From: Cymbomonas tetramitiformis
Taxonomy: Eukaryota > Chlorophyta > Pyramimonadophyceae > Pyramimonadales > Pyramimonadaceae
Length of the DNA stretch: 64,000 bases
Assembly (NCBI GenBank): GCA_001247695.2
Contig: LGRX02027204.1
Span: forward strand, 25,184 to 89,183
Direction: 5' to 3'
Shown here: positions 7,704 to 64,000 of the stretch, piece after piece
Position numbering within the stretch: the stretch's first letter is position 1
Layout: the number at the start of each line of letters is the position of its first letter
Translations under genes and position numbers: made by a program
The notes under the pieces: generated by a model
Told to the model about the DNA's origin: nothing
The model's database searches: none
What the model saw: the letters and a program-made list of their open reading frames with translations, nothing else

Positions 7704-7749
7704 ATATACTTATATATAAATAATATTCTTTAAATATGTTTATAAGAAT

Positions 7750-12615: not shown

Positions 12616-12816
12616 GATTCAGAATGGGAAGAATGTGAGGGTGAATTTGGCTGTCACCGGTGTTTTGCTGCTTGGAAGGAAAGATGTGTTTATTGTACTA
12701 AGAGTGTGTGTCGGAAGCATCGATTCTATTTAGAAAATATAGATGTATCTCCGCGTCATCAAGAGCCTAAATGTATTACCTGTCTTGAAGTGTATTGCAG
12801 TCATAAACATAAATAA
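12616..12816 (+). CDS. Terminal exon H: Cys/His-rich zinc-binding domain
   Basis: This exon follows the acceptor TGTTTGCAG and encodes 66 residues with CHRC, CVYC, CRKH, CITC and CSHKH. The mix of Cys and His is typical of small treble-clef fingers. It is the last of the series and overlaps the end of the convergent methyltransferase gene by 16 nt. Confidence 0.5.
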   Translation, partial: DSEWEECEGEFGCHRCFAAWKERCVYCTKSVCRKHRFYLENIDVSPRHQEPKCITCLEVYCSHKHK

Positions 12817-13496
12817 TATTTTTGATCAATTTCAATTCCAATAAAGTTTCGATTATTATCTTTGCATACCTTGCCAGTTGTTCCGATGCCCATAAATGGG
12901 TCAAGTACATTATCATTCTCATTTGAATAAGTTTTAACAATCCATTCTAATATATCATAAGGTTTGGCAGTTGGGTGTTTACTTTTGTAATTACCATTAG
13001 CAATACTTATTACAGATTTCGGAAACCGTTTCCCATTAGATATAGTATCGATTCTTGGACTGTTACCAGTATACAATTCAGTACGTCGACCAGGCTGTCT
13101 TGTGTAAGGAATTCCGTCAATCATTTGTGGATTATATATTGGTAACTTATCATAGAATATATATAACATTTCGTGCGATCGAAGTGGTTGGTGATTACAA
13201 TGATAGAATCCCGAACTCATTGATTTCTGCCATACAATATCATATTTGAACATTCTTTCATTACTAGATATTAATTTATGTCCGAACCGAGTTGTACAAA
13301 AAAATACATATGCAGTTCGAGGTTTACCGATACGTTTCAGTTCTTTCCATAATCGATCTAAATCAATAATTTGATTGTCAAATTTACATGCAGTTTGATT
13401 GTATGGTAAATCTAAAATAACTAAGTCAATAGAATTAGAATCGATGTTCGGTAATATATCAAAACAATCTGAGTTGTATATGTTTTGGGTTCCCAT
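12801..13496 (-). CDS. DNA methyltransferase (N6-adenine or N4-cytosine, beta-type order)
   Basis: The start is set at the ATG at 13496 (MGTQNIYNSDCF), where homology-like sequence begins; upstream in-frame codons are low-complexity. The product has 231 residues. The catalytic DLPY (29-32, a D-x-P-Y variant) precedes the SAM-binding DPFMGIGTTG (199-208), the beta-group order. HPTAKPY just before the SAM motif is typical of these enzymes. It probably methylates the viral DNA, or acts as an orphan methyltransferase, since no restriction partner is visible. Three quasi-palindromic elements lie upstream. Confidence 0.8.
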   Translation of the reverse strand: MGTQNIYNSDCFDILPNIDSNSIDLVILDLPYNQTACKFDNQIIDLDRLWKELKRIGKPRTAYVFFCTTRFGHKLISSNERMFKYDIVWQKSMSSGFYHCNHQPLRSHEMLYIFYDKLPIYNPQMIDGIPYTRQPGRRTELYTGNSPRIDTISNGKRFPKSVISIANGNYKSKHPTAKPYDILEWIVKTYSNENDNVLDPFMGIGTTGKVCKDNNRNFIGIEIDQKYYLCL

Positions 13497-13661
13497 AAGA
13501 TAATAGAAAAGAAAAGTGAGAAACGGTAACGGGAACAATCTCCGACCGGAAACAAATTTCATTTGTTTCAATTGTTCCTTGTATTGCCAGAACACCGGCA
13601 ACATTCTCTGAATGTTGCTATAATATATTAGATATATTCTAATATGGGTAGACTTATAAAT

Positions 13662-13881
13662 CACGGTAAATGTATCCAAAACAGTAATATGTTATATAAT
13701 ATATGATTCGGGCAACAATTAACGTATGGACTTATAAATTACGCGAAATGTTTCCAAAACAGTAATATGTTATATAATATATGATTCGGGCAACAATTAA
13801 CGTATGGACTTATAAATTACGCGAAATGTTTCCAAAACAGTAATATATATAATATAATTCAATATTGGAAACAATTAACGT
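13662..13881. repeat. Three tandem ~78-bp units of the quasi-palindromic element (copies D1-D3)
   Basis: Units start near 13662, 13741 and 13819 with a 78-bp period. D1 and D2 share a variant core (GTTATATAATATATGATTCG). D3 carries the core found elsewhere in the element (ATATATAATATAATTCAATA). They sit upstream of the methyltransferase and at the apparent right end of the viral genes. They may be promoter multimers or a subterminal repeat. Confidence 0.7.
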
Positions 13882-33219: not shown

Positions 33220-34372
33220 TATTCCGTTTCCGAGCACCCGGCACTGTGTTTTCTGTGACATATCGTGCATATATATATATATCTTATATATATACCCTCA
33301 GATCACCCTTTCTGTCAGGTTATCGACCCACTTCACGCTAAGTGGTGTTTCGGTAAGCATCAGCTCGCTTTGGCAATTTGCCGATTCTAAAGTTCCCTCT
33401 AAAGTACCTTACGGTTAAAGCGCATTCGCCGCAACCGATTTCCTTGAGACAACACGTGGGCTGCCTACCGTCAACGAGAAAGGTTTTCCACGGTTTCCTT
33501 CGGCCAAAATTCCCTCTTTCCCTCTTATTCCTTCACCCTGACCGGCTATTTCCTTCCGATGTCTCAACACCGCCAATCAACCCTCGCAGAGGCGCTTCGA
33601 TCGGCACGACGGGCTAGTGCTACTCCTTCTCCGCCCCCCTGGAAATTCTGGCACTACGACGCCGGGTCCGACACGACCGAGACGCATTGTGTCCACCGCC
33701 TCTCTACGTTCGCGTCCTTTCTCATTGCGTCCTTCGCCCACGCCTTTCATGTTCTTCAACGATCCGTCGGTCCTTGTACCAGCGCATATCTGATAACTTT
33801 ATTCTTTCTTTTTCTTTTATTTTCTTATTCTTTTCTTTTATCTTTCTTCTTTTCTTTTTATCTTATTTACTGTTTTTGGTGCTTCATATAGGCTTCTAGC
33901 CTTACATTCCACTGTTTTACTTCATGACAAACACTGGCTATTCAGCCTAGTATTACAATCACTTTTCCGGTATATGTATGGTCTCGAACCTCCTACATCA
34001 TACCCTTATGTATAGTCTTGGCGCCATGCCTAATCCTAACATGTGAAACTTGCTTATTCCTTAATTCATTTGATCAACACTAACTGAGGTCCACTTTCCA
34101 AGCTTCCCTTTCAACATGTTGCTCTCTAACAATCACTAGCAGGATTCCTGTATTGACATCTGCCATCGACCAATCATGTGCACATATATGCCTGATTCTG
34201 GTACTCCTCCACCAATCATCAGGCAGATCACGATATTGCCATTGCAGATCTTTCTGGAATCCACCAGATCCTCAATATAATTATTGTCATTGCAGATCTT
34301 CTCCTGAAATCTGCCTTGCCATCAATTATTTCTTCATACAGCTGTGACCGGCATGTAACAAGGCCCTTGCAG
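33220..34372. other. Mostly non-coding; possible start of a further element
   Basis: After the LTR there is a TATATATA run (33269-33294) and CGACCCACTTCACGC, similar to leader sequences of related LTRs. A short ORF from 33559 (MSQHRQSTLAEALRSARRAS) looks like the start of another Gag, but runs into a polypyrimidine tract (33786-33880). The CATTGCAGATCTT motif repeats near 34240 and 34289. Nothing else is recognised. Confidence 0.4.
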
Positions 34373-35020
34373 CATGCAACCACCCGTCACCAGCATGCAA
34401 CCTGGCAGGTGTAGCATGCAACCTGGCCTCTGTCGCATGCAACCTGGCCTCTGTGGCATGCAACCAGACATCTGTAGCATGCAACCTGGCCTCCGTGGCA
34501 TGCAGCCTGGCGTATGTAGCATGCAACCTGACATTTGTAGCATGCAACCTGGCCTCTGTCGCATGCAACCTGGCCCCTGTGGCATGCAACCCGACATCTG
34601 TCGCATGCAACCTGGCCTCTGTCGCATGCAACCTGGCCTCTGTGGCATGCAACCCGACATCTGTAGCATGCAACCTGGCCTCTGTCGCATGCAACCTGGC
34701 CTCTGTGGCATGCATGCAACCCGACATCTGTAGCATGCAACCTGGCCTCCGTGGCATGCAACCTGGCCTCTGTAGCATGCAACCTGACATCTGTAGCATG
34801 CAACCTGGCCTCCGTGACATGCAACCGGGCCTCTGTAGCATGCAACCTGACATCTGTAGCATGCAACCTGGCCTCCGTGGCATGCAACCGGGCATCTGTA
34901 GCATGCAACCAGGCATCTGTGGCATGCAACCAGGCATACGCAGCATGCAACCAGGCATCTGTATCATGCAACCACTCGTCGGCAGCATGCAACCAGATCT
35001 CTGTAGCATGCAACCCCGCT
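34373..35020. repeat. GCATGC array 1: 21-bp units in the presumed 3' LTR of element III
   Basis: About 31 tandem units each start GCATGCAACC and continue with about 11 variable bases (often TGGCCTCTGT plus one). The period is almost always 21 bp. Because 21 is a multiple of three, several frames on both strands are open and encode CMQP heptads; these are not genes. Orientation is opposite to arrays 2 and 3. It lies immediately downstream (minus strand) of the Pol stop and PPT, within what should be the U3 of the LTR. Confidence 0.85.
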
Positions 35021-35040
35021 GCTCGTACCTCCCGGTACAA

Positions 35041-35056
35041 CTCCTCCCCCCTCAAG
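35041..35056 (-). promoter_or_regulatory. Polypurine tract of element III
   Basis: The minus strand reads CTTGAGGGGGGAGGAG, directly followed by TTGTACCGGGAGGTAC, a plausible LTR start (TG at 35039). It is 35 nt downstream of the Pol stop. It marks the plus-strand primer and hence the 3' LTR boundary. Confidence 0.6.
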
Positions 35057-35090
35057 AGCGGCCTATCTCCCGATGCCGCTCCCGGTGTCT

Positions 35091-38000
35091 TCAGGTATCA
35101 AGCTCCCCGAATTGAAGATGGTGGAAGAGATGACGCAGTAACGGAGCTGGTACGGGGTACACGGCGTGAGCATCTCGCGCCCCTGGTTGCTGTGAAGACG
35201 ATGGTCCAAGCTGAGCAGTCTCAGGGTGCCCTCCGGTGGCCCATTTACATGCGCAAGGTGTCCGCGAGGTACACTCCAGTAATGGCGTTGGTGGAGGTGA
35301 GCTAGTCCAGATACATGTCGGCTTACGATATCGCTCTCCATACTTACAGTAGGTGCAAAAAAGAGGCTGTGGCAGTTTGCGAACCACTGACCGCAACCGC
35401 AGTGCATTCGGGTATCTTCCCTCAGGGTTTTCAAGAAACCAGTGCTTGGGCTTCAAGTACTCGATAGCATCCAGGGTGCATTTCACACTCTTGTCTGCTC
35501 CTTCCAGATCAGGAGGGCCTCCCGTAGTGCGCGCCTGACTGTACTGGGTGCATGGAGGGCTGGCCCAGATGACATCAAAGAATCCCGGTGGATACTGAGT
35601 GGGGTCCCAGTCAGACTCCATTGATGCGAGATGGTTAGGTTGCCAACGTGGGTCGTTGTCGAGCGTAACCACCGAGGCAGACGGGAAGCACTTGGCAAAC
35701 TCCCTTTCCACCGATCCAGTCCCGCTGAACAACACCAAGATTCTCACTGGCCGGGTCTTCCGCTCTTCAAGGTCGGTGATCACCACTAGCTCTCCATTCC
35801 CCAAGGTTTCCACCCGCTCCCACGGCAGACAGAAGTCTTCTGGTGGAGAATCCACTTCCGGAACGTCACATGGGTGTTCCGTTAGCTGGGATAAGGTGAC
35901 GCCAAGGTGGACGGGCTGTCGCTGTTGACGTCGCCGTCGGTCATGCTCAGTGGATTTCAGCATGTCCGCCTGCATGCCTAATCGTCGTGCCTCGAACTCC
36001 TTGAGCTGCTGATTTTCCCCGCCTCTGTCCATCTTGTCTCTGGAGCGCCACTGGTCGGGAGCTGCCGAGTAGCCCGTCCAGCGTACCTTCCATTCCTCCA
36101 CAGATTTACCCTTGACCATGCGTACACGATACGCCAGGATTTTGTCCACGTGAGCTTCCGCTTGCTTATCTACCATTACCGGGTCAGGTACGGGCAGTTG
36201 TGCTCGAGATGCAAACTCATCCTTGCCGGAGATGTACGGCTTCAGGCGGTGCTGCGCAAACACGTCGTGAATGCGCCAGTGCGGCGGTAGGGCCAACCGA
36301 TATGCCACCGGTGCCCCGCGGTCCGCCTCTGCCAGCTCCGCCTGCAAATCGCTGTAGAAGCACTCCACCACGGTCACAGGTCCATGCCAGCGCTTACCGA
36401 GCTTTCGGCACAGCGCACGGTCCATCACCTTTTCCGTCAGATGACGAGCTTCGATCCACACCAGATCCCCCACTGCGTACTTATGCTGCTTGTGGCGCCG
36501 GTCGAACTGCTCCCGCTGGCGCTGCTGAGCCAACTCAAGGCGGCCACGCGCGTCTCGCAACTGCGACGAAAACTTCGCAGCCATTTCATGGGCGGTACCC
36601 ACCCCCCCTTTCCGTCGCGCAGAGCCAGGGAGAGTTGCAGCTTCCAGGAAAAGGTCTAATTGAGACATCGGGGACACCCCGTAGCATAGCTCAAAGGGCG
36701 TGAACCCGGTGACATCACTGCGCGAGTCGTTGATAGCGAACTCCACGTTCGTCATGTAGAGGTCCCAGTCATCAGGATTGGCACCCACGAACGAGCGCAA
36801 CATGTCCTCCACCACCCGGTTGGTGTGCTCCGCCTGTCCGTCTGAACGAGGGTTGTACGGAGTGGTAGAAGCCACCCGTACCCCCATAAGCCTCATTAGC
36901 TCGCGCCAGAACGAGTCCTGGAATCTGGGGTCACGGTCGCATACAATCTTCATGGGGGCTCCATGCTGCCTCCAGACAACGTCGAAGTAGATGCGGGCCA
37001 CCGTTTGCGCAGAGCTGTCCCCAAAGTTCATGGGCATAAGGCGCACCATTTTGCTCAGCTTGCACGTGAAGGTGACAAAGGCGTCGTTTCCTTGGGCGGT
37101 GAGCGGCAGCCCTGTAACGAAGTCCACGCTCACATCCTGCCAATTGCGTTGGGGAATAGCGTGCGGATTCAATAATCCATCGGGGTAGGATGCCCGGGGA
37201 CGAACCGCCTGACATGTAGGGCATGAGGCCACCCATCCTGCCACATCCTCGGAGGCATTCTTCCACCAGAACCTGCGGAGAACTCTCTCCAGTGTCTTCT
37301 CCCGGCCAGTGTGGCCTGCAGCGGTGGAGTCGTGGGCATCCTTGAAGACTACTTCTCGCAAAGGGGAGTCCTCGCCGAGAACCAGCTGGTACCGTCCTGC
37401 GGCTACACGCCATAGCACGTCCCCGCAACGATACGGAAATCCCTCGTGGCATGCATGGTGCGGGGCCGCAAGGATCTCATCCCGCAGCTGCCGAAGAGGG
37501 CCGGCACATGCATACTCATCGTGCAGGGACTCCAGGAATGTAACGTCTGTGGGGAGGCTCGTAGCATCGCGGGTCTCAGCAGCCTTACCCCGTCGCACTA
37601 TAGGAGGCGCCACTCGGGGATGCCGCACTCTCGGCAACAGCTGTCGGGTAGGGGGAGCATGTACCACCAGCACGGGCCACGGAAGGTCGTGAAGTACACC
37701 GTCAGGAGTCTCGAACAGCTGTGTGGGTACTCCTCGTTCGTCATGGGTAGGTATCACCTCCACCAGCCTCATACCAGCCATTCTGAAGAGCCGCCTCCAT
37801 TGAGGCATGCGGGCCTGGATGTCCGGTAGAAGGAACACTGCCGAGGTATGTGCGGGGTCTTGCCGCCATTCGTCCACATACTTACGCAACACCGCCTCGA
37901 TGGAGATATGACTGCTGGAGTATGGGGGGTTGCACCAGACGTGCTTTCCCCGCCACTGTTGTTGCAGACAATCAGTCCAGTAGGCGTCCACTTGGCGGTT

Positions 38001-41000
38001 CCGTCCACCCAGGTCACAACACGCGTCGACGTCGAAGCTGCCGGACTGTCGTTGGAGGCGCTCAAAGACCTCCTTGCGCACCTTCCAGTCTTGCCGATCG
38101 GCTGGGGGCTTGGCGGTTCGACTAGACGGCCGAGCTGGCTGCTTAGGCCTTCGAGAATCCATAGCAGGCCGTGTCGAGGTTTTCGGCGTGACGGAAGGAG
38201 CCGTCGTAGCAATGGGTTGTTGCAGCCGAGCACTACGACGCAATACCGGGGTGGTTCCCGGGGTGCTCGTTTCCTGCCGGTGCTTTCCAGATTCGGACAT
38301 ATCAGCGAAGTAGTCGGTGGGAGCTCGCAGCATCAGTTGTGCTTCAGGCTGCATGCTGCATGTTGCATGCTCAGCTGGGCGTGTTGCATGCTCAGCTGGG
38401 CAGGTTGCATGCGAAGCTGAGCTGGCTGTATGCGAAGCTGAGCTGGTTGCATGCGAAGCTGAGCTGGTTGCATGCTCAGCAAGGCATGCTGCATGCTCAG
38501 GCGAGCTGATTGCGTGCTCAGACAAGCGTGTTGCATGCTCAGCGGGGCAGGTTGCATGCGAAGCTGAGCTGGTTGCATGCGGAGCTGAGCTGGTTGCATG
38601 CGAAGCTGAGCTGGTTGCATGCGAAGCTGAGCTGGTTGCATGCGAAGCTGAGCTGGTTGCATGCTCAGCAAGGCGTGCTGCATGCTCAGGCGAGCTGGTT
38701 GCATGCTCAGGCAAGCGTGTTGCATGCTCAGCTGGGCAGGTTGCATGCAAAGCTGAGCTGGTTGCATGCTCAGCAAGGCATGCTGCATGCTCAGGCGAGC
38801 TGGTTGCATGCTCAGGCAAGCGTGTTGCATGCTCAGCTGGGCAGGTTGCATGCGAAGCTGAGCTGGTTGCATGCGAAGCTGAGCTGGTTGCATGCGAAGC
38901 TGAGCTGGTTGCATGCTCAGCAAGGCATGCTGCATGCTCAGGCGAGCTGGTTGCATGCTCAGGCAAGCGTGTTGCATGCTCAGCTGGGCAGGTTGCATGC
39001 TCAGCTGAGCTGGTTGCATGCTCAGTAAGGCATGCTGCATGCCAAGGCGCGCTGCCAGCCTGGAGCAGGCTTACCAGGGCTCGCTCCGCCACCTGAAGCG
39101 TCTCCACGCCATCCATCCATGACTCCATGGTGGCCACCCATCCTGGTACAGGGGGTGGCGGGTGGTCTTCAAAGATCTCCTCGACATCCAGCACGGAGAG
39201 CGGGTCCTTGGGGAGGTCCGTCTCCTTGTCTACAACACCGGCCTCCTTGAGCCCATCCCGCGGGTCCTTGGTCACGTAGTCAGGTCGGCGGGATAGCGCA
39301 TCGGGGACCAGAAGGAGGGCTCCCTTGACGTACTCCATTCGTGGGACACCGACCTCCACCAGGTCCATGTACCACCGTGCCTGCCGTCGGCTAAGCTCTC
39401 GTCCCGGGGACATTAGCCATTCCAGGGGGCGATGGTCACCTTGTAACCGGAAGTCGGAGGAGAACAAGTAGTGCCTCCAGGTGACGGTGGTGCAATGGTG
39501 CAACGCACAGAGCTCCCTTTCGCCGGTGTGGTAATTCTGCTCCGCTGCAGAAAACTGCCGACTATCGTAGGCGATCACCCTCATACCGTCTCCCGTATCT
39601 TGCATGAGTACGCCTCCCAAAGCAACTCCACTTGCGTCCGTTTGTACCAAAAACGGCGCTGACCCATCCGCGGCTGCCTTCATGTCGGGCAATGCCAATA
39701 CTGGGGCTGAGGAAAGAGCGGTCTTCAGCTCGTCGAAGGCCCATTGTTGGAGTTCTCCCCACTGCCACGGTACGTCGGTCTTGGTGAGCAAGGTCAAGGG
39801 TTGGGCAATCTCCGAGAACCGGTGCACAAACCGGCGGTAGTACCCCGCTAGTCCAAGGAACTGTCTGACGTGGGTTACTGTCTCCAGCTTCGGCCAGTCC
39901 TTGATGGAGGACACCTTGTCATGCTGAGGTTGGCATCCTTTGGCGGATAGAGTGTGACCCAAGAACCGTAGAGACTCCTTCAGCATCTGCGCCTTGGAAG
40001 CCTTCAGGTATACCCCTTTTTCTCGACAAGTGTCCAAGAACTGACGTACGTGGTCGTAATGTTCTTCCACCGTGCGTGAGAAGACCACCACATCGTCGAT
40101 AAAAATCCGTACAAAGGGGAGATGACCGAGTGCACGCTGCATTCGCCGCTGATACTGAGATGGAGAGTTCTGCAGGCCCTGGGGCATCACCAACCATTCG
40201 TAGGCCCCCATCTGGGTGGTGAACGCGGTCTTCTCCACGTCCTCCTCGGCCATTGGCACTTGCCAGAATCCGTCCACCGCGTCAAAGGAGGAGAAGAACG
40301 CTGCCCCTTGCATCTCGTCAAACATCAGTTGGATGTCCGGTAGTGGATACCGGTCCCGCACCGTCTGCTGATTCAATTGCCGGTAATCCACCACCAGACG
40401 CAATGTCTTCGGGTCACCAGGCTTGGGTACCATCAGACATGGGGCGGCATACGGGCTTGACGACGGCCGGATGTAACCCTTCTTCATGAGCTGCTCGATG
40501 CGTTCACGTAACTGACGTAGCTCTTCAGCGGTCATCTTGTATGGACGCCTACATGGTGGCCCACCCTCCGCGTCCGGCTTGCGATCAATGCGGGCCTTGT
40601 CCTCTTCAGTGCGACGCAACTTGGAGGCCTCCGGTAGAGCTGCACACAGGGTATCTAGATACTTCTCAAAGAAGGCGTCAAAGCGCTGCTTCCACGTGCT
40701 GCTTACCGGTGCATCTCGAGTATCTTGACGGGGTCCTTCCTTCTCCACGGGGGTGTGAGGTGGCGGTACTTCAGCAGCGGTAGCCGCAAAGGCTGCCTCA
40801 TGGTCGTTCCCGCGCGCGGCCATCATGAGCCACTGAGGTTGTGACTCTTCATCCCCGGCCAGGCGCCTGGTCTCGGCGTGGATGAGGTGCTGCTTCAGCT
40901 GCGCTGCCGTCAGGAATACCTCATCGAACAGCCCCGCGCCTTGGGCCTTGCCCTGACCCACCCCCGGACTACAGCCCGCGAGTGTCACCCGTTGCTGTCC

Positions 41001-41549
41001 TCCACCATTTGCTCGCGTGTTGAAGGATACGGAACCGTGACCGGCATAATCCAACGTGACCGGGGAAAGACTGCGAAGCCACTTACCCCCCAACACCACG
41101 TCTACTTGGATTCCTAGCGGCAAGACTCGCAGAGCCATTCGCTTCTCGCAGTAGTTTACTCCCGCCGCCGTGTGCGCGGTAAACTTGGTGTACGCCACCT
41201 CTCCAGCGGTCTTTACAGATCCATCTGACAGTGTGACCTTCATTGGCGTCCCTGAGCGCACTGTCAAGTCACAGGTACGGGCACAATCCGCCGAGATGAA
41301 GTTGTCCGAGGCGCCTGAGTCCACCAGCACCTTTACTCGGTGTCCACGAAGGTAGGCATAGAACACCAGGAGTAAGGGTCCTTCCTCGTCCCGCACCGCT
41401 GACAGTGTGTGTGCCAAGAGTGTCCCTGTTCGAGTGTTTGCTTTCCAGCGCACCCCCCCCATCCAGTTGAACACGCTTACATTTAAGAGCATCTTCAATT
41501 CGGGTGAGAGCTCAAAGCGGTTGCAGCCTCGTCCACCAAGGCGTTGCAC
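35091..41549 (-). CDS. Ty3/gypsy-type Pol polyprotein with adenine-MTase-like and C5-MTase domains (2152 aa)
   Basis: Domains run in order. An aspartic protease (VDSGASDNF, ~76-84) is followed by reverse transcriptase (~330-510; LRLVVDYRQLN and catalytic FIDD at 484-487) and RNase H (TDASGVALGG, ~637-646). A GCATGC-encoded heptad array (~840-1070) and an adenine-methyltransferase-like domain (~1152-1295; NPPYS near 1208) come next. The integrase has an HHCC finger (CPTCQAV) and the D..D..E residues VDFVTG, CDRDPRF and QAEHTNR. A chromodomain-like segment (EEWKVRWTGY) precedes a C-terminal C5-cytosine methyltransferase (~1933-2152). The frame is open throughout, so it may be young. Normal gypsy Pol is roughly half this length. 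Pol overlaps ORF2 by about 55 nt. Confidence 0.9.
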   Translation of the reverse strand: MQRLGGRGCNRFELSPELKMLLNVSVFNWMGGVRWKANTRTGTLLAHTLSAVRDEEGPLLLVFYAYLRGHRVKVLVDSGASDNFISADCARTCDLTVRSGTPMKVTLSDGSVKTAGEVAYTKFTAHTAAGVNYCEKRMALRVLPLGIQVDVVLGGKWLRSLSPVTLDYAGHGSVSFNTRANGGGQQRVTLAGCSPGVGQGKAQGAGLFDEVFLTAAQLKQHLIHAETRRLAGDEESQPQWLMMAARGNDHEAAFAATAAEVPPPHTPVEKEGPRQDTRDAPVSSTWKQRFDAFFEKYLDTLCAALPEASKLRRTEEDKARIDRKPDAEGGPPCRRPYKMTAEELRQLRERIEQLMKKGYIRPSSSPYAAPCLMVPKPGDPKTLRLVVDYRQLNQQTVRDRYPLPDIQLMFDEMQGAAFFSSFDAVDGFWQVPMAEEDVEKTAFTTQMGAYEWLVMPQGLQNSPSQYQRRMQRALGHLPFVRIFIDDVVVFSRTVEEHYDHVRQFLDTCREKGVYLKASKAQMLKESLRFLGHTLSAKGCQPQHDKVSSIKDWPKLETVTHVRQFLGLAGYYRRFVHRFSEIAQPLTLLTKTDVPWQWGELQQWAFDELKTALSSAPVLALPDMKAAADGSAPFLVQTDASGVALGGVLMQDTGDGMRVIAYDSRQFSAAEQNYHTGERELCALHHCTTVTWRHYLFSSDFRLQGDHRPLEWLMSPGRELSRRQARWYMDLVEVGVPRMEYVKGALLLVPDALSRRPDYVTKDPRDGLKEAGVVDKETDLPKDPLSVLDVEEIFEDHPPPPVPGWVATMESWMDGVETLQVAERALVSLLQAGSAPWHAACLTEHATSSAEHATCPAEHATRLPEHATSSPEHAACLAEHATSSASHATSSASHATSSASHATCPAEHATRLPEHATSSPEHAACLAEHATSSALHATCPAEHATRLPEHATSSPEHAARLAEHATSSASHATSSASHATSSASHATSSAPHATSSASHATCPAEHATRLSEHAISSPEHAACLAEHATSSASHATSSASHTASSASHATCPAEHATRPAEHATCSMQPEAQLMLRAPTDYFADMSESGKHRQETSTPGTTPVLRRSARLQQPIATTAPSVTPKTSTRPAMDSRRPKQPARPSSRTAKPPADRQDWKVRKEVFERLQRQSGSFDVDACCDLGGRNRQVDAYWTDCLQQQWRGKHVWCNPPYSSSHISIEAVLRKYVDEWRQDPAHTSAVFLLPDIQARMPQWRRLFRMAGMRLVEVIPTHDERGVPTQLFETPDGVLHDLPWPVLVVHAPPTRQLLPRVRHPRVAPPIVRRGKAAETRDATSLPTDVTFLESLHDEYACAGPLRQLRDEILAAPHHACHEGFPYRCGDVLWRVAAGRYQLVLGEDSPLREVVFKDAHDSTAAGHTGREKTLERVLRRFWWKNASEDVAGWVASCPTCQAVRPRASYPDGLLNPHAIPQRNWQDVSVDFVTGLPLTAQGNDAFVTFTCKLSKMVRLMPMNFGDSSAQTVARIYFDVVWRQHGAPMKIVCDRDPRFQDSFWRELMRLMGVRVASTTPYNPRSDGQAEHTNRVVEDMLRSFVGANPDDWDLYMTNVEFAINDSRSDVTGFTPFELCYGVSPMSQLDLFLEAATLPGSARRKGGVGTAHEMAAKFSSQLRDARGRLELAQQRQREQFDRRHKQHKYAVGDLVWIEARHLTEKVMDRALCRKLGKRWHGPVTVVECFYSDLQAELAEADRGAPVAYRLALPPHWRIHDVFAQHRLKPYISGKDEFASRAQLPVPDPVMVDKQAEAHVDKILAYRVRMVKGKSVEEWKVRWTGYSAAPDQWRSRDKMDRGGENQQLKEFEARRLGMQADMLKSTEHDRRRRQQRQPVHLGVTLSQLTEHPCDVPEVDSPPEDFCLPWERVETLGNGELVVITDLEERKTRPVRILVLFSGTGSVEREFAKCFPSASVVTLDNDPRWQPNHLASMESDWDPTQYPPGFFDVIWASPPCTQYSQARTTGGPPDLEGADKSVKCTLDAIEYLKPKHWFLENPEGRYPNALRLRSVVRKLPQPLFCTYCKYGERYRKPTCIWTSSPPPTPLLECTSRTPCACKWATGGHPETAQLGPSSSQQPGARDAHAVYPVPAPLLRHLFHHLQFGELDT
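35093..35756 (-). other. C5-cytosine methyltransferase domain of the Pol polyprotein
   Basis: Motif I is LVLFSGTGSVEREF. Motif IV is SPPCTQYS, with the catalytic Cys near residue 2000. ENP in place of ENV is seen in motif VI, and YRKPTCIWT lies in the motif VIII region. A CACKWATGG-containing tail and LRHLFHHL close the protein. The catalytic residues appear intact. C5 methyltransferases inside LTR retroelements are known from charophyte and dinoflagellate genomes (recalled knowledge). I cannot tell whether this one is related. Confidence 0.75.
37660..38095 (-). other. Adenine-methyltransferase-like (phage Dam-type) domain of Pol
   Basis: DWKVRKEVFERL leads into FDVDACCDLGGRNRQ, YWTD, W-R-G-K-HVWCNPPYS, then AVFLLPDIQA and W-RRLFRMAG. 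The order D-V-D-A, N-R-Q, Y-W-T, W, then NPPY and L-L-P matches the small phage DNA N6-adenine methyltransferases, where NPPY is the catalytic motif. It sits between the heptad array and the integrase, an unusual place. Activity is inferred from motif conservation. Confidence 0.65.
38340..39043. repeat. GCATGC array 2, inside the pol ORF
   Basis: About 33 units of 21 bp occur. On the coding (minus) strand each contains GCATGCAACC followed by 11 bases such as AGCTCAGCTTC. They encode seven-residue repeats of the EHATSSA type between RNase H and the adenine-methyltransferase-like domain. The frame is kept through all units. Confidence 0.85.
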
Positions 41550-44126
41550 TCGTGTTCTTCGCCACTACCATGTTCAGTGGCACCGACGTACGTGGTGGCG
41601 TTGGTCGAGACACTGACGTGAGTGGTGTCACTGTTGGTGTCGCTGACGTGTGTGGTGTCGCTGCCGGTGGCACTGACGTGCGTTGTGTCGCTGTCGGTGG
41701 CGCTAATGTGCGTCGTGTCGCTGTCGGTGGCGCTGACGTGAGTAGTGCCACTGTCGGTAGCGCTGACATGTGTAGAGTCACTGTCTGATCCGCTTTCCAG
41801 CGGCTGGGACCCACCGGTTGCATGCTGGGCCGAGCGCGTTGCATGCTTGGCGGAGCCGGTTGCATGCCCAGGCTGTCTGGTTGCATGCTCAGCCGGGCGT
41901 GTCGCATGCTCAGCCGGGCAGGTTGCATGCTTAGCCAGGCTGGTTGCATGCTCAACGAGGCAGGTTGCATGCTGAGACCCACTGGTTGCATGCTGAGCCG
42001 GGCGTGTTGCATGCCGGGCGAGGCGTGTTGCATGCTCAGCCGGGCGGGTTGCATGCTCAGCAAGGCATGCTGCATGCTCTGGCGAGCTGGTTGCATGCTC
42101 AGCGGGGCAGGTTGCATGCTCAGCTGGGCGTGTTGCATGCTCAGCTGGGCAGGTTGCATGCTGAGACCCACTGGTTGCATGCATAGGCCGGCTGGTTGCA
42201 TGCGCAGGCCGGCTGGTTGCATGCTCAGCAAGGCATGCTGCATGCTCAGGCGAGCTGGTAGCATGCTCAGCGAGGCGGGTTGCATGCTCAGCTGGGCGTG
42301 TTGCATGCTCAGCTGGGCAGGTTGCATGCTGAGACCCACTGGTTGCATGCGCAGGCCGGCTGGGTTGCATGCTCAGCAAGGCATGCTGCATGCTCAGGCG
42401 AGCCGGTCGCATGCTCAGCCGGACTGGTTGCATGCTGTGAGGCGCTGGTTGCATGCTGGAATCCACTGGTTGCATGCTGAACCAGGCGTGTTGCATGCTG
42501 GTCGGGGCGTGTTGCATGCGGGTACAGGCCCGTTGCATGCTCAGCCGGTCGAGTTGCATGCCGGCGTGGGCTGTCAGGTCCTCCCGCCAGCTGCTGGGTC
42601 ATGTTCAGCTCCTCCTCGGGCGGACTAGGGCAGGATGCAGCACGTTGGTTGCATGCTGGCGGTATGCTACCCGATCCGCCTGCCAGTTGCTGGGTCATAC
42701 TCAGCTCCTCCTCGAGGTGCTCAGGTTCGCCCGCCGGTTGCTGGGTCGTGCTCAGACCCTCCCAAGCAGCAAGACGCGCAGTCTCCCAAGCCGCAAGACG
42801 TGCAGCTTCATTCTTCCTCCAGGCTTTCATCCGCTGGTCCAAGGTCGTACGCTTCCTCCCACTCCTCGAAGGCTTCGAACGACGGGTAGGCGTATCCTCC
42901 CCCGAGGACTGCTCACGGTGTTGCTGCAACCGGTACTGGCTGCAATGAATCTCCATCTCGGACTCGTCCGTGCTGTGGGTTAGGTCCGAGGGGCTCGATC
43001 CCAGAGTTGCCGCAAGAACTGTCTCGTCTGGTTTGAGAGGAGCAGGATTGGGAGGTGGGTGTGCTCGTCGAACACGTCCGAACACAGCATGCACAATCGC
43101 CTTACCGCACTGCCTGACCCGCTGGACTGCCGTGGTCCATGTGGAGGCCGTCTTGAGCGCATGGGAGTCAAAGGGGGTGTCCTGCGCTCGTTGTGCCCGC
43201 CGACGTCGCCACAAGCGATAGGCTCGCTGTATTGATATCGCCGCTGACGCTTGACGCCGTCGAAGGCGACGGAGCCCAATCATCTCCCAAGGTCGGCCTT
43301 CTTGAGGTACATTCGTCTTCGGCCCGTATTCTTGCTCCACAGCCCGACGCTGCTCGCGTGGACTCAACTCCGCCCAGGCCAAGCCCAATGTGCCGCCCAT
43401 GCGACCACGCAAGCGGGCAAGTATAAGCTTGTCCAACTCGTACTTCCGTTGGCGACGGCTGAAGGGTGTAGTCGCGGGACGTCGTGTAGCATGGCGACGA
43501 CTGCGCTCAGCCATCTTGTGTGCCTCCGCCGGGGACTTCTTCTTGAGGGTCATGCGTAGTTGTCGTAGTAGGACACTTTCAGAGGTAGCCCCGGCCGGGC
43601 TTCTCCAGCTCCACGATGTCAACCGTCTACGCTGATCTGCCAGGGAACTCTGGTACACCTCGGAGGCCCCCGGTGCAGCTAGGTGCAGATCCTTGTAGTC
43701 GCTGGGCTGAACTGTGGGTGCCGCGTGATGAGCTCGGATACGTGGAGGAGGTCCATCAACATTACCGCGGTCAATTGGGACACCGTGTTCGGCACAGTAA
43801 GTCTCCCAACAAGGATGTGCTGTCGGTGGGGTTATCGGCGGAGTCAATGATCCCCGAGGAGGGGGGGGATCCTCCACTGAGAGGGGTCGTCTGCTCAAAA
43901 TGGTTGCGCGCCGTGCGCGCTCTCGGCCACTGAAGGCAATCCGTGATGAACGGGGCCTCGGGCTGACGGTGGAGGGGGGCCGTGCGGCCACACCATGGGA
44001 CGAATCTGATGAAGCCTCTGTGCTCACTGGGGCATGCAGCGCTCGCAGTGAGACGGGCTTTGTCGGGGTACAGGCGGTGGCCTCGTCACGTGACGTCCGC
44101 GAGGGCCATGAAGGACGGGCTGCCAC
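41495..44126 (-). pseudogene. ORF2 of element III: basic protein with IQ-like motif and GCATGC heptads (one frameshift)
   Basis: Two frames join if one G is removed from CTGGGTTGC at ~42361; all sister units read CTGGTTGC. The joined product would be about 875 residues. The N-terminal half is Arg/Ser/Pro-rich with a basic helix that looks like an IQ motif (ISIQRAYRLWRRRRAQ, ~295-310). QQLAGG linkers and about 35 heptads of the EHATxPA type follow. A Thr/Ser tail with repeated ATDSDTTHVS ends about 18 codons into pol. No enzyme is recognised. It lies between gag and pol, where gypsy elements normally have nothing. Confidence 0.5.
41815..42560. repeat. GCATGC array 3, inside ORF2
   Basis: About 35 units of 21 bp run in the same orientation as array 2. 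One unit has the single-base insertion at ~42361 that breaks the ORF. Confidence 0.85.
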
Positions 44127-44167
44127 ATTGGTATAGGGCTGCCTCTGTCCACGGGGTCGATGGAGAT

Positions 44168-45318
44168 TTACTCCTCTTGCCCGGGAGCCCCTGTCGGCTC
44201 CCCACTCCGAAAAGCTGGATCCTCGGTGCTCGTGATGTCACACAGGGCACACAGATCCCCATAGAGGTCCACGTCAACATCCGCCAGAGCGAGGACCTCC
44301 TCCATCATTTCAAGCTCTTCGGGGTTGAGGGAATCCTCCTCGACTCTCTCCTCAATGACCTCCACGCAAGCCGCCACTTGCCCTGGCCTTCGCGCCAACC
44401 GTGCCGGGGCGTTGGCCTTCCAGATTGCCAACTTCTTTTCGTCTGTGCAATTGGCCACCAAATGCTCGAGACTGCCACATGCAAAACAGGGCCGCTCCCT
44501 CACCGCAGGTGCCGGTCGGGATCCTTGGGTCGCCGCCGTGCTGACGGTCACCGGGGCCGCTGTTGCCGAGTCGCCCCCGGCAGTCCCCGGCTCCCACGTG
44601 AGTGCCGCCAACGCAGGCCTCCTCGGGGGCCATCTAGACCGCCCAGACGGGGTGCTGCGTGGTGGAACTTGCCGCTGTCGGTGTCCCATCTCCAACGCCA
44701 CCTTACGGGCGATGGTGTCGTGGAGAACCGCGTCCTCCATCACCTTAGCCGTCTCAATTTCCGTGGCCACGGAACGAACCTTCAAGATGGCGGAGGTGTC
44801 GGACCGTCCGAGTCGACGTTGTTCATCTTCCCACTGCTCCGGGTGACTGGTGTCCAGCCCCAGGTCCGCCAACTTGGAACCCACTTGAACGCTGTGACGT
44901 AGTCCACCCCAAAAAAGCTCGAGAAGTTCCAGCTTGGTAACCTTGCCGCAACCCCGTACTACGTCCGCCACAAAGTTGACAGTCGCGGTTCGGGTGGTGA
45001 TGCGGGTGTAGAAGGCACCGGTCTTCTCCTCCGATCGCTGCCTCGTTGAGAGTAGCTCCGACTTCAACCGCTTCAGGGCGTCCGTGGTGATGTCCACCGA
45101 CAAGGCAAGGTCGCCCATGAACCGTGGCACCGTTGCGTACCTCGCCTTCCACGCCTCTCCTTCGCTGCCTCCTGGCGCCATCTCCTCGACGTACAGCTTC
45201 TGGGCATGGCCAACTTGGCGGTCTTGACCATCCATAGCAAGGTGGAGACGCTGAGCTGGTTGCGTCCTTGCGCCTCACGCCGAAAGCTGGGAGTAGTGAG
45301 CGCCGCAATCACCGTCAT
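44168..45318 (-). CDS. Gag of element III (capsid-like plus zinc knuckle)
   Basis: An ATG at 45318 (MTVIAALTTPSFRRE) opens a frame that joins the long ORF (from 45235) after a 1-nt shift near 45210, so a frameshift is likely. The C-terminal part has a knuckle-type CFACGSLEHLVANC, basic residues before it, and an acidic tail (VEEDSLNPEELEMMEEV). The middle is helical (DALKRLKSELLSTRQR, FWGGLRHSVQVG). The layout fits a gypsy Gag with capsid and nucleocapsid parts. An intron acceptor (TATTTTGTAG) lies just upstream at 45352, so the 5' leader appears spliced. Confidence 0.65.
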
Positions 45319-45351
45319 GTGCTCCAGAAGCGCATTCACCGCCACAGACCC

Positions 45352-58633: not shown

Positions 58634-59304
58634 GGGAGTTCCTCGAGACGCTTGCGGATCTTAACTGGAAGTACGATACTGCGCGGACGAGTGACATGCT
58701 CACGCATATTTCCCTCACTCGCCGAGTCTCGAAGCTCGGGAGCTAATGTCGCTCGATCGGACCAGTTTGTGGAATCCAGATGCTCAATGAGAACATTGAC
58801 CGCGTAAGGCGGCTCGATCCACACCTCCTCGCCAGGATTCGCATTGTTGATTTTCGCCGCATCGGTGGACCTGCTTTCATCTCGGAGAATCAGGCTGTGG
58901 AATTTGGCGGGCGTGCCGTTCGCTAAACCACGCGAAGGATTTAGGTCGTTGTTTAGAATAATTCCAGGCGCACCGGCAACGAAAGTGCCTGTCAATTCGG
59001 GAAATTCCGACCGGATCACGTCTTCATGTCGGGAGTCCAAAAGTGTGGTTGCAATAGGTCGCTTCCAACGAATTATCGGTTGTCCACTGAGCCGCGCAAA
59101 ATGCCGTGCACGCACATCATTGATAGCTTGTCGTTGCCGATTGCCAGTCACGGCCACCGTCGCGAAGAGCCAATCGCGGTCCATTTGTACATCCGATGCC
59201 GTGAGCACCTTCAGCCGGTCCAAATCGGACTGCGTAATGGGTCGTTCCTCCGAACGGCATCGTTCAATGAAGCGGACGTGATCCGGGTCACTAGCTGCTC
59301 GAAC
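58634..59304 (-). pseudogene. Helitron PIF1-type helicase, exon after the intron (truncated)
   Basis: Starting at the acceptor (TACGCAG|GTTCGAGC), the frame reads VRAASDPDHVRFIERCRS, then PITQSDLDRLKVL and GNRQRQAINDVRARHF. This is the standard middle of a Helitron helicase. LANGTPAKFHSL follows, the usual N-G-T element before the last helicase motifs. The frame stops at KRLEEL where LTR element IV begins, so the C-terminal motif (the H-K-x-Q-G type) is missing. The enzyme cannot be active. Confidence 0.7.
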
Positions 59305-59420
59305 CTGCGTACGAACATCAACACACCAATAATGCTCGCGGTCGCATGCAAAAACCGCGGAAGGATTCGGTATTGAAAATAAATAAGATTTCCAGGAGGT
59401 ATTAAAGTGATCGGAAATAC
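59305..59420 (-). other. Spliceosomal intron in the Helitron gene
   Basis: The 116-bp intron has the donor ACAG|GTATTT and the acceptor GTACGCAG. Joining the exons restores LTEQ-VRAASDP, a continuous helicase sequence, which strongly supports it. Without splicing the frame runs into unrelated residues. Confidence 0.75.
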
Positions 59421-61110
59421 CTGTTCGGTTAATGGATAGCGCCGGATAGCTTGGAATAGACGACCAGCTTTCTCAGCCACATCAAATGATCGTTGGCCGG
59501 AAAAGACGTTTAAAGCTTGTTTGTACAACGATTTTCCCACGGGGGCTAGTTGTCCAAAATCGCCCACAGCCACCACCGCTAGTCCCCCCCATTCAGTTTT
59601 GGCCTGGTCGCCGACTCGTCGGATTTCGGCACAACGATCTTGAAGATGTCCATACAAGCATGCCTCAACCATGGAGATTTCGTCGATAAGTAATATGTAG
59701 GCGGTACCGGGGCCAAGGCGCACCGCGTACTCCGCCTTCGTGGCCGGATTCATGGCCTTCAAAGGCACCGCCCTGCAAGCTTCCGTGGGCTTCATATCAC
59801 CCAAGTTATGAATGGTCCGCGCACCTGGGATGAGAGCCGCCGCAACCCCGGACGGAGCGCAGCAAACCACGGTGCCATCATGACCGGATAAAAAATTCGC
59901 GGCGGTGCACAAGGCTTTGGCGACGTAACTCTTGCCGGTGCCCGGTCCGCCGTCCCACAAGGAAGTCATCGGTGGAGGTGGAGGAGGCTTGCTCTGCGCC
60001 TCGGCGGCCAGACATAGGGATAACCATGACAACACGGGGGTGACCGCATCACGTTGACCTGCGTTTAGATCGGTGGTGATTAAAAACGAAGCTCCGTCGA
60101 AGTCGCCTACCACCATTATGGCCAATCCGCCCCACGTATCACGCTCCTCCATAGGCATTCCTTCCACCGCCAACCTCCTCGCACAAAGTTGTTGTAAGCG
60201 GGCGAAGAGAGCGGCATCGTCGTATACGCACTTTGGAACGAGAAGCAGTCGACATTTGAAGATGGCATGATCCGCTGGGATGGGTCCGGTGCCAAACAAA
60301 GCGTCATATACGTTAGGGCACATCTCGTGAGCAAAGGCCCCAGATTCATCGGAGGGGGTGGAAGGCATGCGGAGGCATCCAATGTTGTCCGATGGAACGC
60401 CAAGACGGGATACCGATGAAAGAAATGTTGACACGCGAGGGTGAGGTCGTTTCGCGTCCGAAAGAATGACAAAGGGGCGTGCCGCTCGATGACGAGATGG
60501 ACCGTCGCCTGTTTGTAGTCGAAGCCACCCAAGGAGGTGATCGAAAATCTTGGCCTCGGTCTTGGATTGAAAGTCGGCGGGACAAACTCGAATGTGAGGA
60601 TCGACGCCTGCTCCAATATCATGAGGCGAAGCGGTCTCGTCCGTAGCGACAGTTCGTTGTTCCGGGATGGACGCGTCCGGCTCTTGTGCCATAACTTCCG
60701 CTACACGATTAGCATCTTGTTCGGTGTAGGATGAGACCAAATCAGGACGGCCTACGCGGGTGGGTCCCTGAACATCGGTGGACGGATTGTTCACGCGGTC
60801 ATCGCCGGTCGCCGGCATGGTCTCGGTGTGAATCCGCTCAAAGAAGTCGACGGAGCCCTGCACAAACTTGCGCTCCGCTTTCAACGCATCAAGCCGAGAA
60901 TCCCCATCAGCGCCCTCGGCATCTTCCAACACTTGAAGGTTGCGTGTACGGATTTCCTCGATCAACCCATCCAACTCCATATCTCGGTCACGCATAGGTA
61001 CTTTCTCTCCAGTAGGGTTTGCCGGGGGAACGTACGGACCTTGACCTGTCTCAGCTGCGGTTTCAAGCGTTTCCCAATCCACGACCGCTGGGCACGCCAC
61101 TGGGTCAGAA
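59421..61110 (-). pseudogene. Helitron PIF1-type helicase, main part
   Basis: About 560 codons are recognisable. An acidic linker (MELDGLIEEIRTRNL) and a conserved LNAGQRDAVTPVLSWL precede Walker A (GGPGTGKSYVAKAL). Then come CAPSGVAAALIPGARTIHNL (motif Ia), Walker B (ILLIDEISMV) and VAVGDFGQLAPV (motif III). This is the 5'-3' helicase that unwinds DNA during rolling-circle transposition. It connects to the Rep frame upstream only by a 1-nt shift near 61110-61130. Confidence 0.75.
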
Positions 61111-62995
61111 TCTTTTTCTTCCGCAAATTCACGTTGAGTCCAAAGGTCACATTCTCGACATACGCAAGGCGTGCCCGCATAATGAAAGGTGCATCAGGCC
61201 GGGAGGCGGCTTGGCACCAATCACAAAAAACGTCCCAGCCGGTGGCCGGACCCTTTAGATTTTGTGCTTCGACGGCGTCGCCGGTATCCATGCAAGCCTT
61301 CCATTGGGAAATATCCCAAGGCTTGATTAACGCGAGCATATATGCGCTGTATTTCTCGGCCTTCTTCGTCCAGGTCTTGTTCCCAATAATACGTGGTCCA
61401 GGATACTTAGGGGGAGGCCCACCTGCTAAGATGGGACATTTGAACTTAGATCGGATACGCTGCACGTGGGTGTGGTGCAAGGGATGATCGGGATGAAATC
61501 GAAATAGTCCGTTCACAGGCCGTCCACGTTGAGGAGCCGGCATTTCGACAACCAAGCCGGTTTCGGGAATGTTCTGGACGCAGCGTGGAGAGGTCGGTTC
61601 CGGCATTTCTTCATCCTCCGGTTTTTTGGGTTGCCGCACCACATCCACAAGGGCGCCATACTCCACCAAATTCAGATTAGCTAACTCGTTACCCCGGTAA
61701 AGGTAATGCGTATGCTGAGCGACCGGGATCGGTTCACCGTCGATGTCACGATATACGGTAGCGCCGGCATCACCTTGCACTCTGCGAGCTTGGCCGATGA
61801 CTTCCGCTTCCCCATAGTCAGGGACGACATCGTCGGCATCAATCCCGGGGAACATGTCGGCATCCTCGAGGTCTTCATCGTCACAATCGATATCATCGTC
61901 CGGTCGCTCTCCATGACCTCCGACGGTTTCGTCGCCTTGCGCCAAGCCAATGCCTTGCTCGCTAGCAAACGCCTTAACCGCCGCCCATATGTGCACGTAC
62001 CAAAAGCCCTCACTTGTCGGAACGGTTGGCAATCCGAGTAAGAAGGATGCCGCTTGTTCTACGCCAACTTCTTGAGCCCCCGTAATATTGTTCAGAGTGC
62101 GCGTGATAACATGTTGAGCGGTTCTCACTTCCGTACCCGAATTCTCGGCAACCGAGGGCCGGTGAGCGACGGACTTAGTGGCCTCGTATAAGCAAGATAA
62201 GGTAATAGCGGGTTCCCACGGATCCTTCACCATATACTTGAACATATAGTAGCCAGCAGTTTTCGCCTGCTCCGCAGACCCAAGCATGTACATGGCCGTG
62301 TTGCCCCCCATGACTGCGGTGAATGCACGATTGAAGGCCGTCATGAAGGTGTCGTCGTTTTCGGGTCTATAAGGTTCCCAAACTATTACGCGTTTGTCGG
62401 GTTCCACGAGAGGTGCATCGATGCTAGGAGTCGCAGGGTCACGAAGTTCACGGGGGGCAATAGACTCCGCCTCCATCACGTTGAACCGCGTAATTCCTTC
62501 GGTATCCACGTTGGAATCATTGCCATCACCAACCACAATGAGTTCGGTTGGCCCAGTATCCCGGGTACGTAGAGCTTGAGGCATGCATAGGCGACAACCG
62601 TATCGACCGTTTGGCGGCTTTCTACAAGTGAAGGTGTGTCGGTCATGACGATTCGAATAAGCCGACACTCGAGCCCAGCGAACATCGAACGGAGTGCCGT
62701 TCCGAGTATCCGGCGGCGGCGCATCCGGCGGCGGAGCGTTCGGATAGCACGGAGAACATATTACCTCGGGTTCCCGATCCAGCGGTAAGGGGGAATCGTA
62801 GAGTGCGAGCCGAGGTGCGGCTCTCTCTGCCGGGTCCTCTTTGGCGCGGCGTGCATGAACTTCTTCATGCGCCCATGTGGGCAAATGTGCTTGCACTACT
62901 GTATAGTGTCGAGCACTTTTCCCGCTCGGGAGGCGAGCTCCGGATCCTCGGCTATCTTCTCCAAAATAATGTCGGCGATAGCGCATCCAAAGAGG
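61105..62995 (-). pseudogene. Helitron Rep protein, C-terminal part
   Basis: It has a Helitron-type finger (HTFTCRKPPNGRYGCRLCMP) and, later, AGYYMFKYMVKDP, the tyrosine-bearing segment that nicks and joins DNA in Rep enzymes. RSKFKCPILAGGPPPKYPG and WTKKAEKYSAYMLAL follow, as in related elements. The joint to the HUH part needs a 2-nt correction near 62895-62905 (LDTIQ then VQAHLP). The joint to the helicase needs another near 61120. It is a degenerate copy. Confidence 0.7.
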
Positions 62996-63887
62996 CAACC
63001 GTGTAAGTGCAGAGCGCCCCGCTGTTGGGCTTCAATTACCGCCAAAAATGCGGCAAGCACGCCCCCAAAAACGCATGGATCCCGAGATCCCAGCGGTTGC
63101 GTTCTCTTTGTGTCTGCCTCGAGATGCAGCCCCAAAAGACCTTCGACCGCGGCCTTCATCAAAATTCTAAAACTCTCGGCCGCGGCAGCGGGGTGTTCAG
63201 CTAACAAGGCGGCGCGTTGTGCTGGCGTGGTTTGGATAGCAAATCCGAAGCCTTCCTCATCGGACGGCTTCATGGGGTCCTTCGAGGATGGCTTACAGAA
63301 GCGGATGGTGAGCATATTGTCCATGTCTGGTGGGGATATCGTGATGAAGAAGGTGGGGTTGCCATACATGTAACTCATGGCCATCATCTTGGAGATGTTC
63401 TGCGCCCGCTCGCCGGGCCCATAAGGGACAGTCCCGCCACTCAATCGGAGGATGGGAGTTATTTCCGCCAGAAGTTTTTTGGCGGCGTCACTTTCGGGGT
63501 CCTTGGCCGCTTCCTGCAGGGCCTTTCGAAACTCGGGTCGCCGAATGATCTCCATAAATCGATTGATGGAAGCATCATCCGACTTTACTTTCGCCGCGAC
63601 CTGGCGACATGCTGCGTGGCGTTGGGCTTGATTGAATAACGTGAGAATAACATCGGCGTTGTCGAAGCGGATGTCATATTGCAATAACAAATGCCGTGTA
63701 TGGCGCGATGACAATGACGACTTCGGCAAACCATGGTGCGCAGTAAAAAATAACCACGGGAATGCTCCATAGAAGAAGAAATCGTTCTCCGTGAATTCGT
63801 TGACGTGTTTGTCGCCAAAAGTGATCGGCACCTCTTGCACCGCCGCAGGACGAGCACGACCTTCCTGGCGTGGAGGTGGCGAGGTTC
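62896..63887 (-). pseudogene. Helitron Rep protein, N-terminal domain with HUH motif
   Basis: The exon begins after the acceptor TGTTTTCAG at 63888. It contains the Helitron N-domain (FFFYGAFPWLFFTAHHGLP, LLQYDIRF, GTVPYGPGERAQNISKMM, NPTFFITISPPDM) and the metal-binding HUH motif in RGALHLHG (~63003-63020). The frame ends prematurely at a TAG at 62898. The upstream intron runs off the right edge, so the gene start is outside the window. Confidence 0.75.
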
Positions 63888-64000
63888 CTGAAAACAAACA
63901 ACACGAAATTATTCAAAAACTTCCGCCGGGCCGCCAAAATCATGCGGGGAATCAGTGGGTCATTTTAAGAATGTGGACGGGACGGTGGGTGTGTTTAAGA
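63888..64000 (-). other. Intron of the Helitron gene, cut by the window edge
   Basis: Minus-strand acceptor TTGTTTGTTTTCAG lies at 63888. No donor is visible within the window. Confidence 0.5.

Follow-up and report, generated by a model that had tools for sequence, protein, structure and literature searches.

Ty3/Gypsy-type elements of Cymbomonas tetramitiformis with a Dam-type adenine and a C5-cytosine methyltransferase domain in one Pol polyprotein

The Pol frame and the element copy around it

We analysed a 64,000-nucleotide stretch of the genome of the green alga Cymbomonas tetramitiformis (contig LGRX02027204.1, positions 25,184 to 89,183; hereafter the window), which contains a copy of a retrotransposon whose Pol polyprotein carries two different methyltransferase domains. 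Pfam matches, predicted folds and motifs give the order along this Pol as protease, reverse transcriptase (RT), RNase H, Dam-type adenine methyltransferase (Dam), integrase, chromodomain and C5-cytosine methyltransferase (C5) (Table 1). The best solved-structure match of the Pol is Ty3, and the Ty3/Gypsy order of protease, RT, RNase H and DDE integrase is present in it and lies in one frame in another copy (L046). Unlike in DIRS elements, a Pfam scan of the window Pol found no tyrosine recombinase but the H2C2 and rve integrase domains instead. By sequence and predicted fold, the window Pol is confirmed as a chromodomain-bearing Ty3/Gypsy type that contains both a Dam-type adenine methyltransferase and a domain with the fold of C5-cytosine methyltransferases. 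A preliminary description of this DNA had reported an open frame of 2152 aa; the frame is indeed open, but it is 2157 aa long, extends as given in Table 1 and lies on the minus strand.

Table 1. Window coordinates of the Pol domains and of the element copy that contains them
Feature	Position	Strand	Evidence or remark
Pol open frame, protease to C5 methyltransferase	35091..41564, including stop	minus	2157 aa stop to stop
Aspartic protease domain	41088..41354	minus	PF13650 33.3 bits
Reverse transcriptase domain	39948..40430, aa 379-539	minus	RVT_1 PF00078 E 1e-30; Ty3 7q5b E 3.7e-108
RNase H domain	39357..39761, aa 602-736	minus	PF17919/PF17917
21-bp minisatellite, in-frame part of RNase H-Dam linker	~38230..39110	minus	repeat search; frame open
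Dam-type N6-adenine methyltransferase domain	37644..38102; NPPY 37920-37931	minus	PF05869 match aa 1153-1226
DDE-type integrase	36849..37367	minus	H2C2 PF17921 69.8 bits, aa 1400-1457; rve PF00665 25.3 bits, aa 1478-1572, below its cut-off of 32.6
Chromodomain	35985..36152, aa 1805-1860	minus	PF00385 22.9 bits, cut-off 25.1
Small phage-like C5-cytosine methyltransferase domain	35112..35753; SPPC 35550-35561, ENP 35424-35432	minus	
5' part of gag-pol frame, 642 aa	42309..44237	minus	off-frame from pol here
Gag C-terminal part, 368-aa frame	44168..45274	minus	homology of the copy stops at 45348
21-bp minisatellite array, pol 3' end and past it	34246..35137	unassigned	repeat search
Element copy extent	33775..45348	minus	blastn against copies L051, L052

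The adenine domain had been described as lying between RNase H and integrase, and this is borne out by the PF05869 match (41.6 bits against a cut-off of 28.1), the NPPY motif and the predicted fold, while the match to the stricter TIGR01712 stays below its cut-off (39 against 97.05). Among solved-structure sequences, we found no clear relative of the PF05869-type domain (best E 0.23). Dam is the next domain after RNase H, separated from it by a linker of about 420 aa in the window Pol and about 130 aa in the relative P0030. The element contains three arrays of a 21-bp minisatellite (34246-35137, ~38230-39110 and ~41480-42640), of which the second is read in frame as part of Pol; in the relative P0002, such a run is missing from the RNase H-Dam linker. 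The chromodomain profile, which the window copy matches below its cut-off, is matched above it in copy L046 (26.5 bits) and in the relatives P0008 (28.7) and P0032 (28.8).

The cytosine domain of the window copy is below threshold for PF00145 (15.5 bits against 22) and for TIGR00675 (16.1 against 100.65), and two of the eight scanned relatives pass the PF00145 cut-off (P0008 with 24.5 bits and P0028 with 24.7). On the other hand, the phage family phrog_757 covers residues 7-195 of the 228 in the domain (E 6.9e-17), the predicted structure has a C5 methyltransferase fold, and the fold and the SPPC and ENP motifs are all present in the window copy. Its sequence matches are phage-like families and small stand-alone enzymes, while its best fold matches are DNMT3. 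The preliminary placement of a C5 domain after the chromodomain thus stands on fold, motifs and phrog_757 but not on the Pfam profile of this copy, and each of the two domains has profile or fold support. Dam and C5 as duplicates of each other are ruled out (hhalign probability 1.1%).

A close copy on contig C18885 matches the window from 33775 to 45348 by blastn. At 33775, both copies carry TGTACCAG before their flanks diverge, and this position is the probable 3' end of the element. At the opposite end, the window copy breaks off within gag, while the other copy continues upstream in a gag frame of at least 759 aa, in which a CCHC motif (CX2CX4HX4C) was found by eye rather than by profile (L052 and L053 together). 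The 5' part of gag-pol and pol share one frame in some other copies but lie in different frames here. Since it is cut inside gag and has gag and pol in different frames, the window copy is a damaged, 5'-truncated insertion with its Pol frame still open. No pair of long terminal repeats was seen in the window copy, where the truncation can explain the absence, or in one other copy, which runs off its contig.

Genomic copies, relatives and selection

A Dam profile search of the 852-Mb genome assembly (G000) gave at least 150 places over the cut-off among 7257 candidates. The 30 loci listed comprise 19 close copies by DNA (96-100% identity in the stretches listed), eight DIRS-type loci recognised by layout and by eye (L001, L002, L003, L004, L005, L006, L010 and L014), and three that look like diverged Gypsy elements (L012, L015 and L016). 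With copies about 98% alike, we infer a multi-copy family that has been active recently. Twenty further copies were fetched on a frame length of more than 2000 aa. NPPY is present in the longest frame of all 20, SPPC also in 17 (it is missing from that frame in L034, L041 and L042), and the pattern [FYW]F[LIMV]ENP also in 15 (L032 and L050 have SPPC without it); five copies have a single open frame of more than 3000 aa (3107, 3081, 3061, 3026 and 3016 aa). Both catalytic motifs had been called intact in the preliminary description. NPPY, SPPC and ENP are located in the window Pol and most copies and relatives retain them, so loss in all copies is not seen.

Selection was estimated from the ratio of nonsynonymous to synonymous substitution (dN/dS), computed pairwise and summed over 18-21 copies including that of the window, with a codon bootstrap; the analysis excluded domain rows below 93% of full length and the integrase row of L030, which has a stop. 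The ratio was 0.053 for protease, 0.096 for RT, 0.023 for RNase H, 0.096 for integrase and 0.253 for the chromodomain, compared to 0.062 for Dam (bootstrap 0.015-0.150) and 0.118 for C5 (0.053-0.230). Adding 19 further loci (40 copies) brought the Dam value to 0.119. Measured on these aligned copies, both methyltransferases are under purifying selection about as tight as that on RT and integrase.

The pairing is also seen in related proteins. In a relative set of 80 proteins, made up of the window Pol (P0001) and 79 matches, 42 have Dam, 36 have C5, 33 have both, and 26 have both nearly full length, with the window Pol included in the counts. These 26 reach down to 32% identity, and all of them keep SPPC and ENP while 22 keep NPP[Y/F]. 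SPPC is present in 34 of the 36 C5 domains, the other two (P0023 and P0042) stopping before the motif position. Judged by these sequences, the combination of Dam and C5 is old and has long been co-retained. The named proteins near the top of the match list are from Cymbomonas.

Layouts vary among the relatives. A PHD finger lies between Dam and integrase in the Gypsy relatives P0030, P0031 and P0033. The order is reversed in P0045, where C5 (118-335) comes first, followed by the Gypsy domains, a Tudor-like domain (1805-1850; 22.5 bits against a cut-off of 27.2) and Dam (1871-2017). In an RT tree of 55 chosen rows, with P0041 as an arbitrary outgroup and with P0004 filling 42% of columns, P0045 has a long branch and joins the ordinary Gypsy elements with 100/100 support. 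Eight of the nine Pfam-scanned proteins (the window Pol and eight relatives) have a match to a chromatin reader, that is, a chromodomain, PHD or Tudor domain; the match is only below cut-off in P0001, P0037 and P0045, and P0028 is the protein without any.

Origins of the two methyltransferases

The adenine domain had been called phage Dam-like in the preliminary description. This is correct for the name of the family, but the closest matches found come from DIRS-type elements of this genome, namely from their Dam domains. With a profile of the Gypsy Dam, the eight DIRS-type loci score 104-128 bits and the tested viral contigs at most 61, while two proteins without known source reach 118 (P0211) and 108 bits (P0213) and the best on the phage side reach 67 (P0218) and 63 (P0219). 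A Dam tree of 51 chosen rows separates, at 100/100, a 24-row group from 26 phage rows and P0218. This group consists of 13 Gypsy, six DIRS and two motif-less Gypsy rows, the reversed P0045, P0211 and P0213, and its inner order is not resolved. Gypsy and DIRS Dam share 40% identity over 97 aa.

Besides RT, the DIRS-type loci have a Dam domain, likewise placed after RNase H, and a tyrosine recombinase motif was recognised by eye in L001, L004, L005, L006 and L010. In the Pfam scan of L001, Dam (54.0 bits) exceeds its cut-off, whereas RVT_1 (23.2) and phage integrase (18.7) fall short of theirs. Since DIRS1-like elements of many eukaryotes have the arrangement RT-RNase H-methyltransferase, according to the available part of PMC3266345, we infer that transfer of Dam from DIRS to Gypsy would be the simpler direction.

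For the cytosine enzyme, a tree of 64 chosen rows places the C5 domains of 14 forward-order Gypsy rows in one branch of 22 rows (99/92). Its other members are a Prorocentrum protein and seven shorter ones, of which two bear the name Cymbomonas. This branch adjoins small stand-alone C5 enzymes, and most of the stand-alone matches are nameless. Viral contigs frequently hold relatives of C5 (at least 580 of 600 stretches), with 29-40% identity in the best 80; of seven frames taken from two viral contigs, Pfam recognised two as methylases and matched none of the other five. Separately, the position of the Prorocentrum minimum protein (P0130) inside the branch perhaps points to a related element in dinoflagellates.

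The C5 domain of the reversed-order P0045 has P0165 as its sister and lies outside the Gypsy C5 branch. An approximately unbiased test of a single C5 origin, with P0165 grouped with P0045 and 37 chosen rows in the tree, gave p 0.069. An independent origin of this C5 domain is thus favoured by the tree but not proven, and the reversed-order Gypsy lineage has perhaps acquired both enzymes independently.

Two further features were seen in the window. A virus-like AT-rich stretch on the minus strand (3-2302, 4848-7709 and 12804-13691) encodes a viral/organellar B-family DNA polymerase, a herpes-type origin-binding helicase and an N6/N4 DNA methylase. Helitron remains, also on the minus strand (59214-63912), comprise a PIF1 helicase and a Helitron-like N-terminal domain.

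Possible roles of two predicted DNA-marking enzymes in one element

We consider it somewhat probable that a Gypsy ancestor gained a DIRS-placed Dam and a phage-type C5 and that both are active, marking the element's own cDNA or fresh insertion. In this scenario, the ancestor would have acquired an adenine methyltransferase at the position next to RNase H, which the enzyme also occupies in DIRS retrotransposons, and a small C5 methyltransferase of phage type beyond integrase and chromodomain. Both domains are probably active DNA methyltransferases, and what follows on mechanism is read from the anatomy of the protein. Since Dam comes next after RNase H, it could act on cDNA while this is made, so that Dam, tied to the RT end, would mark new cDNA as it is synthesised. 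Since C5 follows the chromodomain, its target could be either the cDNA within the integration complex or the insertion site, so that C5, tied to the integrase-chromodomain end, would mark one of these two. The likely gain would be a new copy that looks like host DNA, or one that starts out mildly silenced and so escapes damage or clearance. One group of Dam domains serves both tyrosine recombinase (DIRS) and DDE integrase elements, which suggests that Dam acts before or apart from the integration chemistry.

A bolder version, which we put forward tentatively and would not bet on, is a two-mark system in which the RT-side enzyme writes N6-methyladenine (6mA), the integrase-side enzyme writes 5-methylcytosine (5mC), and a reader (chromodomain, PHD or Tudor) sits in the same protein, giving the element's own new copies a double signature. 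Such a system would have arisen at least twice, in the forward Cymbomonas-type order and in the reversed P0045; its adenine enzyme would have passed between DIRS and Gypsy elements, and its cytosine enzymes would be of phage or virus type.

Several observations weigh against marking of the element's own DNA by two active enzymes, or against the evidence from which we argue it. A Dam match and a long frame were the criteria by which copies entered the dN/dS analysis, so the values, above all that of Dam, may be too low. Long branches are present in the RT tree, where the program warned of long branches meeting, and within the Dam group (P0045 and P0038). The excess of C-to-T changes at CpG is slight in the family copies (transition fraction 0.0111, compared to 0.0108 at CHG and 0.0084 at CHH), and the observed/expected CpG ratio is 0.79 over the full element with its minisatellites, compared to 0.84-1.16 in six other stretches of the window; two stretches of pol give 0.84-0.86. 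In these sequences, we see no strong sign of CpG methylation in the family. NPP[Y/F] is missing in eight of the 42 Dam domains (P0006, P0009, P0017, P0024, P0028, P0038, P0039 and P0047), which were left out of Dam set A1, so the invariant NPP of that set is a result of row selection and not an observation. P0041 retains weakly recognisable remnants of Dam and C5 with neither catalytic motif. Lastly, the nearest solved fold of the Dam model (m9c1453771799) is PCIF1/CAPAM, an RNA cap enzyme.

The best surviving alternative, which we regard as rather unlikely, is that Dam methylates RNA, for example adenines of the element's own transcript, while C5 methylates DNA or RNA. Less likely still is retention of the domains for a structural or binding role in which enzyme function is unneeded. 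The motif-less Dam domains, recognisable in the rest of their length, and the remnants in P0041 speak for such a role; however, 34 of the 42 Dam domains still have NPP[Y/F], SPPC is kept in all C5 domains that reach its position, and selection on both domains about equals that on RT and integrase. We find it improbable that the enzymes act in trans against DNA viruses, an idea put forward by Morozov et al. for methylases of retrotransposons (PMC6338049, in its available part). Many integrated DNA viruses are reported in the host genome (available text of PMC10675990) and the window itself holds the virus-like stretch with its B-family polymerase, but the sequence holds nothing tying the enzymes to viruses, and their fusion within Pol suggests that they act on nucleic acid of the element itself. 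An assembly chimera or chance matches, to which the weak PF00145 score of the window copy taken alone might point, are scarcely credible given the same layout on many contigs of the genome and in proteins of other sources, and the confident predicted folds.

Methyltransferases are known from retrotransposons of several kinds, as described in the portions available of the papers cited here. C5 enzymes are known in Gypsy, DIRS and LINE (long interspersed nuclear element) retrotransposons (PMC5890265), and a Dam-type enzyme is known in DIRS, its function being called unknown in 2011 (PMC3266345). KnitGypsy-Dnmt3 of Klebsormidium nitens shares with the Cymbomonas element a C5 domain inside a Ty3/Gypsy Pol, retained motifs and purifying selection, but its enzyme is assigned to Dnmt3 and the available text mentions no adenine domain, whereas the Cymbomonas element has a small phage-like C5 together with Dam (PMC5890265). 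SymbioDIRS-Dnmt3 and SymbioLINE-Dnmt of Symbiodinium are likewise retrotransposons with an acquired C5, but on DIRS and LINE backbones and, in the same text, with no mention of an adenine domain in the same element (PMC5890265). DIRS1-like elements share the methyltransferase after RNase H (PMC3266345) and the Dam tree group with the Cymbomonas Gypsy elements; DIRS uses a tyrosine recombinase, whereas the latter have a DDE integrase, a chromodomain and the additional C5.

From Cymbomonas itself, Burns et al. 2015 reported scaffolds of very high coverage resembling chromodomain, RNase H and cytosine methyltransferase, which are probably parts of the present family; in the available text, they are not presented as one element and no adenine domain is mentioned (PMC5741210). 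Chromodomain-bearing Gypsy pol elements of the same alga have been called Chlamyvir relatives, and the word methyltransferase is absent from the main text about them, as far as that text was available (PMC10675990). In Ectocarpus, a Gypsy element with Tudor and a Sola1 element with a ParB-methyltransferase protein are algal cases of a reader or a predicted N4/N6 DNA methyltransferase, with no single element carrying two methyltransferases mentioned in the accessible part (PMC12477816). Among the titles and abstract openings listed, which did not cover Repbase or preprints, we found no earlier account of both enzymes in one retrotransposon, in line with the preliminary description. New here are the grouping of Dam with DIRS elements of the same genome and apart from phage Dams, the small phage-like C5, the PHD-bearing relatives and the reversed-order lineage.

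Altogether, retrotransposon methyltransferases have been known singly, and here both occur in one polyprotein. A DIRS-type Dam beside another integration enzyme separates the role of Dam from tyrosine recombination and offers a fresh way to ask why enzymes of the DNA-marking kinds are found in mobile elements at all. Cymbomonas has been sequenced by Nanopore (PMC10675990, in its available part), and with many young copies in its genome, the question of self-marking is directly testable in this alga.
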